Shown piece by piece: positions 15,343 through 61,324 of a stretch of 64,000 bases of DNA. Position 1 is the first letter of the stretch; each line of letters starts with the position of its first letter. The translations under genes and the position numbers were made by a program. The notes under the pieces were generated by a model that searched no databases, had not been told where the DNA came from, and was given only the letters and a program-made list of their open reading frames with translations. Source of the DNA: Rhodanobacter humi (GTDB lineage Bacteria > Pseudomonadota > Gammaproteobacteria > Xanthomonadales > Rhodanobacteraceae). The stretch covers positions 124,001 to 188,000 of the forward strand of contig NZ_JBGBPY010000001.1 in NCBI RefSeq assembly GCF_041107455.1, read 5' to 3'.

Positions 15343-15432
15343 TGGCGGAGAGAGTGGGATTCGAACCCACGGTAGGCTTGCACCTACGGCAGTTTTCAAG
15401 ACTGCTGCCTTAAACCACTCGGCCATCTCTCC
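15343..15432 (-). tRNA. tRNA-Ser(UGA)
   Basis: A 90-nt class II tRNA with a 7-bp acceptor stem (GGAGAGA with TCTCTCC), discriminator G and an encoded CCA. The anticodon loop CTTGAAA gives anticodon TGA. The variable arm is long (CGTAGGTGCAAGCCTACCG) and the T loop is TTCGAAT. Two partial 5' copies lie immediately upstream in the direction of transcription. Confidence 0.97.
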
Positions 15433-15756
15433 GTTGTCGCTTCCCGCCAAGGCGCGCTACGCGCGCCGCTACGGCAGTTTGGTTCCGGGCATCCTGCCCT
15501 TCACCCCTTCGGGGCCAGCGGCTGCGCCGCTGTCCGCTTCGGCTTCCTGCCTACGCGTCAAGACTGCTGCCTTAAACCGCTCGGCCATCTCTCCGTTGTC
15601 GCTTCCCGCCAAGGCGCGCTACGCGCGCCACTACGCCAGTTTGGTTCCGGGCATCCTGCCCTCCACCCCTTCGGGGCCAGCGGCTGCGCCGCTGTCCGCT
15701 TCGGCATCCTGCCTACGCGTCAAGACTGCTGCCTTAAACCGCTCGGCCATCTCTCC
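15433..15756 (-). repeat. Two tandem 162-bp repeats each ending in a tRNA-Ser 5' half
   Basis: The units 15433-15594 and 15595-15756 differ at four positions by direct comparison. Each contains a 125-bp GC-rich spacer with small hairpins. Each also carries 37 bp (15558-15594 and 15720-15756) that match the 5' half of the adjacent tRNA-Ser from its first base through the anticodon TGA, with one difference in the D loop. The intact tRNA begins where a third half would stand. The array therefore reads half-spacer-half-spacer-complete tRNA on the minus strand. Confidence 0.9.
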
Positions 15757-15804
15757 GAATTGTCCTGCTGGCTGGTCACATACCCGCAGCCAGCGCGCAT
15801 CCTA

Positions 15805-17492
<1,688 letters not shown>

Positions 17493-59647: not shown

Positions 59648-59700
59648 TGCGGCCAGGGATGGCCGCTCGTTTGACGTTCGCGATCAAGGATGATCGCAAG
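59648..59700. repeat. Paired-hairpin repeat, copy 1
   Basis: GTGCGGCCAGGGATGGCCGC is followed after about 12 bp by GCGATCAAGGATGATCGC. Both are short palindromes with a GGAT-type centre. The same two-hairpin unit recurs at 59712 and 61271. Confidence 0.85.
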
Positions 59701-59711
59701 GGTGTCGAGCA

Positions 59712-59765
59712 GTGCGGTCAAGGATGGCCGCTCACTTGACTCTCACGATCATGGATGATCGCAAG
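59712..59765. repeat. Paired-hairpin repeat, copy 2
   Basis: Second unit directly after copy 1. The first hairpin has one mismatch (GCGGTCAAGGATGGCCGC), and the second reads ACGATCATGGATGATCGC. It lies just before the FHA gene stop codon. Confidence 0.85.
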
Positions 59766-61270: not shown

Positions 61271-61324
61271 GTGCAGCCATGGATGGCTGCCCGTGTGACG
61301 TTCGCGATCAAGGATGATCGCAAA
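61271..61324. repeat. Paired-hairpin repeat, copy 3
   Basis: GTGCAGCCATGGATGGCTGC and GCGATCAAGGATGATCGC are separated by CCGTGTGACGTTC. It has the same order and spacing as copies 1 and 2 about 1.5 kb away. It lies between infA and the shared terminator. Confidence 0.85.

Follow-up and report, generated by a model that had tools for sequence, protein, structure and literature searches.

Why would a bacterium keep two incomplete copies of a tRNA directly in front of the intact gene? The tRNA-Ser(UGA) gene of Rhodanobacter humi (15343..15432; called by ARAGORN and matched by Rfam RF00005 with 62.7 bits) raises this question, as it is preceded by a proximal (15433..15594) and a distal (15595..15756) unit of 162 nt each, all on the reverse strand; coordinates are those of the window, the whole stretch of 64,000 nt that was analyzed. 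A sequence-only reading of this DNA had described two tandem units carrying 5′ halves of tRNA-Ser(UGA) ahead of the intact gene, which ARAGORN and a repeat search of the window confirm. In particular, the repeat search, reporting in its own register, finds two 162 nt copies that are 97% alike (15396-15557 and 15558-15719) and three 38 nt copies of the tRNA's start (15396-15433, 15558-15595 and 15720-15757). The first 37 nt of each unit (15558..15594 in the proximal and 15720..15756 in the distal unit, reverse strand) equal the tRNA with one mismatch to the intact gene, and reach through CTTGA to their last base, anticodon base 36. Further upstream on the same strand are serS, the seryl-tRNA synthetase gene (16179..17459; Pfam PF00587 and PF02403), and, between serS and the array, a 125-codon reading frame without a Pfam match (15805..16182), whose GTG start is our choice.

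The units had been taken for tRNA halves cut at the anticodon and separated by 125 bp spacers. The 37 nt identity does end there, but the resemblance to the tRNA resumes after about 77 nt, and the spacer consists of a structured element of that length, the 3′ anticodon strand and a hairpin resembling a variable arm. The insert (15481..15557 in the proximal and 15643..15719 in the distal unit, reverse strand) separates positions 36 and 37 of the anticodon loop, and is followed by AAACTGCC in the proximal unit and by AAACTGGC in the distal unit, which are the 3′ side of the anticodon arm. Read in the sense direction, a unit is composed of the acceptor 5′ strand, the D arm, the anticodon 5′ strand, CTTGA, the insert of about 77 nt, the 3′ anticodon strand, GTAG, a hairpin at the place of the variable arm, and a short linker that leads to the next GGAGAG. 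The variable-arm-like hairpin, GGCGCGC-GUA-GCGCGCC, is identical in the distal (15613..15629) and proximal (15451-15467) units, again on the reverse strand. Judged by this order of parts, each unit is a tRNA copy that has an interrupted anticodon loop and stops short of the T arm. Since what a unit presents is a tRNA-like fold broken by a conserved insert, the proposal that the locus yields tRNA-half-like RNAs is not the best reading of it. Two other identities for the intervening sequence were rejected: an anonymous spacer, because the insert has homologues in relatives and covariance-model matches across the class; and a group I intron in the anticodon loop, as the insert is only 77 nt long, has no Rfam intron match and, unlike an intron with its intact 3′ exon, is not followed by a T arm and 3′ acceptor strand. 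Separately, a tRNA-like gene at another locus (L271) apparently has, judged by eye, a long group I intron-like insert in its anticodon loop.

The origin of the insert becomes apparent from covariance models. R1, a model of the insert trained on 33 insert sequences from units of tRNA-Ser(UGA), with E-values that are rough, matches the array at 15474-15557 (proximal, 104.1 bits, the span taking in the 3′ anticodon strand) and at 15636-15719 (distal, 103.3 bits, this element being one of R1's training sequences). When applied to 821 bases of E. coli K-12 tyrT-tyrV with filters off, R1 matches both complete rtT repeats (34.3 bits, E = 6.5e-8 and 27.0 bits, E = 2.8e-6), and its matches fall inside those of RF00391, the RtT RNA family; rttR is annotated at 1287066-1287236 in that genome. 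In the reverse direction, RF00391 matches relatives of the insert in loci L262, L265 (4 times) and L272 at 31.8-37.8 bits (E = 0.0002-0.008; cut-off 45), and finds no match in the locus of this array or in L274 at E = 5, nor any in the Rhodanobacter humi genome at E ≤ 1e-3. Since R1 matches E. coli rtT and RF00391 matches the insert's relatives, comparison shows the repeats to be units of what is very probably the rtT family, in a new position, the insert being a homologue of the E. coli rtT repeat. The earlier analogy with E. coli tyrT was therefore right, with the qualification that RF00391 reaches the insert's relatives below its cut-off, and not this array. Across 274 genomes of the class, RF00391 reaches its cut-off in 18 and an E-value of 0.001 in 50, and R1 finds 57 genomes at E = 0.0001, including that of Rhodanobacter humi; across the phylum, R1 finds 27 of 200 genomes. 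To our knowledge, rtT has so far stood alone as a peculiarity of tyrT operons in enterics; in E. coli, it is processed into a stable 171 nt RNA. Among the matches listed by a search of titles and the starts of abstracts, mostly in literature outside subscription, no paper concerns rtT-like inserts outside enterics. RtT is mentioned in the available part of PMC7657543.

To account for the array, we propose that a truncated copy of tRNA-Ser(UGA), holding an rtT-homologous element of about 77 nt in its anticodon loop, was duplicated in tandem. The position of the units, together with a promoter-like box in part of the relatives, suggests that the tRNA's promoter would lie upstream of the array, so that the units would form the leader of the pre-tRNA-Ser transcript, and RNase P maturation of the tRNA would set this leader free. 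Each element presents two hairpin loops of the A(N)GGA type; the leader would most likely be bound by an RNA-binding protein that reads such loops, RsmA/CsrA would be the best candidate partner, and the availability of RsmA/CsrA could in this way be tied to stable-RNA synthesis. The probability of this whole explanation, rtT-family units as a pre-tRNA leader that probably binds RsmA, is roughly 0.5. Its parts differ in strength: a transcribed leader with a selected RNA structure is rather likely, and RsmA/CsrA as its partner is a tentative prediction of binding. The main rival is a tolerated dispersed palindromic element. According to this account, a small piece of palindromic DNA that lodges in the loops of hairpins came to sit in the anticodon loop of an extra tRNA-Ser copy, the copies have since stayed alike through tandem duplication and through gene conversion with the intact gene, and the array has no host function; we consider it a serious possibility, at somewhat below even odds. 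The evidence on structure, distribution and loop sequence bears on both accounts.

The structural evidence disfavors a tolerated palindrome, as compensatory changes occur in most helices across 43 units. When these units are laid out on a 31-pair structure, 95.9% of the pair cells are standard, and both-side changes occur in 15 of the 31 pairs as compared to 7.2 in shuffles, which ignore relatedness. If the partner columns are offset by 1 to 3, pairing falls to 29-45% (at most 44.7%), in a comparison that favors the original because the structure was drawn from one member. The variable-arm-like hairpin (helix 7) has both-side changes in 5 of 6 pairs and 86.1% of its cells paired; RNAalifold recovers the same core without this hairpin. 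Further, two hairpins with GGA in their loops retain it in most members despite changes in their stems (gggcAGGATgccc, ggcgcAGGATgcgcc, gggacAGGATgtccc, gggcGGGACgccc and cgcaATGGAtgcg), and GGA stays as both stems and loop lengths vary (AGGAT, AGGGAT, CAGGAAG, CTGGATG and CCGGGAG). In this array, these are the first hairpin of each element (helix 3 of the covariation structure), GGC-AGGAU-GCC in the distal (15703..15713) and GGC-AGGAA-GCC in the proximal element (15541..15551), and the last hairpin (helix 6), which is GGGC-AGGAU-GCCC in both the distal (15649..15661) and the proximal element (15487..15499), all on the reverse strand, yielding four GGA-loop hairpins, two per unit.

The sequence-only reading had also suggested looking for the spacer beside the tRNA genes of relatives, and homologues are found upstream of tRNA-Ser(UGA) in related genomes. 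A DNA pattern spanning the tRNA half and the insert locates the same junction in 38 named contigs, one of them a complete genome, from Rhodanobacter, Dyella, Dokdonella, Oleiagrimonas, Fulvimonas and unclassified bins; therefore, the array is neither a product of chance nor a one-off assembly error, and both candidates were rejected. Among these 38, the unit is upstream of the intact tRNA-Ser(UGA) in 29 of the 29 contigs whose examined sequence reaches that tRNA. The maintenance of a one-locus junction across genera argues against a dispersed palindrome, though its regularity is in favor of one, with GA before the insert in 26 of 39 cases and C as the first base in 34 of 39. The patchy presence of the units is likewise in favor: among 81 family loci with at least 200 nt upstream, picked by tRNA similarity and spread over genera rather than at random, 25 have anticodon-loop units in 1 to 4 copies each, another 5 carry tRNA copies whose interruption is in the T loop, and the remaining 51 lack a unit, and in family f2 the unit is present at 1 of 16 loci and missing at 15. 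Moreover, units follow their own tRNA, as the palindromic account would have it through gene conversion. Out of 60 distinct units, 36 have no mismatch to their own tRNA in the first 36 nt, 12 have one and 12 have two to six; and where the tRNA has the anticodon stem CCGGT/ACCGG, many units are changed likewise, a tracking that would reflect either gene conversion or selection.

Several loci depart from this pattern. At L125, L130, L137, L142 and L156, in other Rhodanobacteraceae, the upstream tRNA-Ser(UGA) copies are interrupted in the T loop, not in the anticodon loop; the copies of the first four are without clear pairs of GGA hairpins, and that of L156 has one. The unit at L098 has decayed, with both GGA loops lost. 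A second palindrome, GAGCCTGTCC(T/C)GGACTTGATCC..., is nested inside element hairpins at L082, L093 and L081. In the units of L082 and L093, this second and unrelated palindrome occupies a GGA hairpin, which is what elements settling in hairpin loops would produce.

Beyond the family, 22 of the 39 genomes sampled have, by raw count, the element no more than 600 nt from a tRNA gene, and the tRNAs concerned are for Gln (8), Ser (5), Arg (5), Tyr (2), Pro (1) and Lys (1). It is on the tRNA's strand in 22 of these 22, and in 52 of the 52 elements with a tRNA in the stretch among 83 elements collected, which counts against the palindromic account, although strand is not independent evidence where the element sits inside a tRNA fragment. 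In 18 of the 22 genomes, the joined flanks of the element align to that tRNA clearly better than shuffles do, and are read as a tRNA fragment. In the other 17 of the 39 genomes no tRNA is near the element, a point against our proposal; because 20 of the 39 loci span only about 400 nt per side, some tRNAs may be missed. Some copies away from tRNAs sit inside larger dispersed repeats. For example, near-identical dispersed copies, all 7 in genome G540 and the 6 examined of 14 in genome G664, lie inside larger repeats with shared flanks, consistent with a dispersed palindrome; set against this, the nucleotide-level comparisons identified no autonomous relative or transposase.

The tRNA-associated elements occur in two layouts. 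Upstream of a tRNA, the element interrupts the D or anticodon loop of a 5′ fragment; downstream, it interrupts the T loop of a 3′ fragment (GGTTCGA, the element, then AATCC...CCA), and in L262, L265, L266, L267, L272 and L280 an inverted copy of the same 3′ fragment precedes it, by eye. By its arrangement, E. coli rtT is the downstream, 3′-fragment layout. Since the Rhodanobacter humi array has the upstream layout with an opened anticodon loop, its earlier description as the mirror case of rtT stands as to position, with 5′ fragments upstream, but it is one of several such cases: in other families (L297, L298 and L301), ARAGORN calls an intact tRNA-Ser(GCU) downstream of 5′ fragments of that tRNA with an opened D loop. 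In these three gammaproteobacterial loci and in L296, element-opened tRNA-Ser fragments lie between csrA and tRNA-Ser(GCU); at L296, whose contig breaks off within the array, the tRNA-Ser 5′ fragments with a D-loop insert stand in tandem next to csrA with a period of about 162 nt. The proximity of arrays to csrA in seven genomes was rejected as a link between the two, as tRNA-Ser(GCU) is present in the same stretch in six of them (ARAGORN) and the seventh, L296, ends inside its array; arrays near csrA are read as the neighborhood of tRNA-Ser(GCU). At L043, a long palindrome is made up of the tRNA-Ser(GCU) 3′ end together with the terminator of that gene, and beyond it, on the opposite strand, there is a further copy of the element.

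The loop sequences are the reason for proposing RsmA/CsrA. GGA in a hairpin loop is a CsrA/RsmA site, according to the available part of PMC8144298. In 33 sampled elements with four hairpins, GGA is present in the loop of the first hairpin in 30, the second in none, the third in 3 and the last in 29, counts that are biased upward because R1 was trained on GGA-bearing inserts, though R1 still finds the GGA-free copies of E. coli. The retention of GGA only in the outer hairpins is evidence against a palindrome without function. Against RsmA/CsrA as the partner, the E. coli rtT elements have no GGA loop, and the motif is also missing from the first hairpin in L275, L304 and L322, from the last hairpin in L268, L306, L321 and L322, and also from units 1 and 3 of L265 and from L256, a locus of the Rhodanobacter humi genome. 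In favor of the palindromic account, GGA is kept where no tRNA is visible near the element (in 12 and 11 of 13 copies) and in genomes without a csrA match. Among the matches listed, there is none to csrA for 9 of 57 element-positive genomes (G427, G431, G487, G511, G517, G541, G613, G632 and G677, with completeness from 73 to 100) and for 30 of 217 others, and elements from eight of those nine csrA-negative genomes keep a GGA loop in at least one hairpin. Co-occurrence of the element with csrA is not supported across the 274 genomes, and this result both lowers the CsrA step of our proposal and leaves CsrA unsupported as the class-wide reason for the GGA loops. Rhodanobacter humi itself has two csrA genes, the second at C2:44918-45073 on a small second contig.

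Hairpins with such loops are frequent elsewhere in the Rhodanobacter humi genome. Over 864 kb, 40 hairpins outside predicted genes have A(N)GGA(N) loops, more than in any other of the 64 A(N)xyz(N) classes, of which the next has 19 and the median is 5; a further 27 are inside genes. The excess stems in good part from another dispersed repeat, a double hairpin (AGTGCGGCCANGGATGGCCGC ... CGCGNTCANGGANGANCGCA) with A(N)GGA loops spaced by about 31 nt, which occurs in the window at about 59650-59760 and 61275-61320 and elsewhere in the genome, and which looks like a set of ready-made CsrA/RsmA sites. Between co-directional genes, 14 A(N)GGA hairpins are sense and 5 antisense, a bias that is only suggestive given that several come from the same spots and that the gene finder was home-made. 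Among known sponge RNAs, no Rfam family exceeds its cut-off in the window or in 18 related loci, and none matches the locus of the array at E ≤ 5; a relative (L274) has a weak RsmY match of 22.3 bits (cut-off 57). CsrB has no match in the Rhodanobacter humi genome at E = 1, and the best PrrB/RsmZ match there, 29.6 bits with a cut-off of 44 at C1:729084-729218, could be an ordinary RsmA sponge RNA.

A primary transcript over the repeats, as had been supposed, is plausible. The box TGATAGGAT, which resembles an extended -10 element, is located upstream of the array (15799..15807, reverse strand), where it overlaps the stop codon of the preceding reading frame; as a plain consensus scan yields no sigma-70 promoter, the box is weak evidence. 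Across relatives, TGNTANNAT is present within 150 nt upstream of the first unit at only 22 of 57 unit loci, as compared to 15 of 70 loci without units, which makes the box only suggestive; it occurs inside the array at 0 of the 57 (some genomes being counted twice).

If the units are transcribed with the tRNA, they could also act on its processing, as the sequence-only reading had raised in calling them processing decoys. Extra 5′ acceptor strands would then compete for the single 3′ strand, and delay or regulate the folding of pre-tRNA-Ser and its cleavage by RNase P. When 15343-15795 is folded thermodynamically (minimum free energy -207.5, z = -2.43), the 3′ acceptor strand prefers the distal unit (P = 0.82) over its native strand (0.16) and the proximal unit (0.02), which makes misfolding possible, though such a fold ignores co-transcriptional folding, tertiary structure and proteins. 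The part of the decoy idea that stands is thus that a unit's 5′ strand can compete in the predicted fold; against it, the units have no T arm or 3′ acceptor strand, and RNase P recognition rests on the T arm. Moreover, because relatives downstream of other tRNAs carry 3′ ends, competition for the 3′ strand is not a common feature, and we regard the decoy explanation as improbable. Less probable still are attachment-site remnants of elements integrated at the tRNA: anticodon and T loops are known crossover places of such elements, but these elements normally leave 3′ fragments, and here tandem 5′ halves with a structured insert are alike in several genera.

Returning to rtT-family units as a putative leader of pre-tRNA-Ser, its consequences extend beyond this locus. 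The comparison makes rtT part of a family that spans the class and repeats one arrangement, in which the element opens the D, anticodon or T loop of 5′ fragments ahead of a tRNA or of 3′ fragments behind it; two mostly conserved GGA loops give it a testable function, and the sequence beside bacterial tRNA genes is seen to hold an overlooked structured RNA. In the widest form of this idea, which we hold to be unlikely, rtT would be one local member of a widespread element kept in the loops of tRNA fragments on either side of tRNA genes, and the leaders and trailers of pre-tRNAs would form a hidden reservoir of CsrA/RsmA decoys that couples the regulator to tRNA synthesis; in Rhodanobacter, where CsrB and RsmZ are below their Rfam cut-offs, the element could then serve as a main sponge. 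Xanthomonas, of the same order as Rhodanobacter, is a further case. The available part of PMC7694677 states that sequenced Xanthomonas genomes have no significant homologue of known sponge families; if RsmA binds the element, it would supply candidate sponges for an order without reported classical homologues, as far as that part of the source describes Xanthomonas (PMC7694677).

Among known systems, RtT RNA (RF00391) is the closest, as both have tandem units beside a tRNA gene in which a homologous structured element interrupts a loop of a tRNA fragment. They differ in that E. coli has 3′ ends with CCA, opened in the T loop, downstream of tyrT/tyrV and without GGA loops, whereas here 5′ halves are opened in the anticodon loop, upstream of the tRNA and with GGA loops. 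The array shares several GGA-loop hairpins with the sponges CsrB, CsrC and RsmX/Y/Z, but would be situated inside a pre-tRNA, has few sites per RNA and does not match these Rfam families. According to the available part of PMC7694677, RsmU of Xanthomonas campestris is an RsmA-binding RNA with GGA motifs, to which the array may be likened, but RsmU derives from the comEA 3′ UTR, is reported only in Xanthomonas, and its binding persisted after GGA changes. A precedent may be seen in RrA, RrB and RrF, sRNAs in the E. coli rRNA transcript that, according to the available part of PMC8144298, bind CsrA in vitro, and do so more weakly when their GGA motifs are changed. These RNAs sit between the two terminators of rRNA operons (PMC8144298), which distinguishes them from the array; what the two would have in common is that each is part of a stable-RNA transcript with GGA motifs in its loops, as read and predicted for the array.
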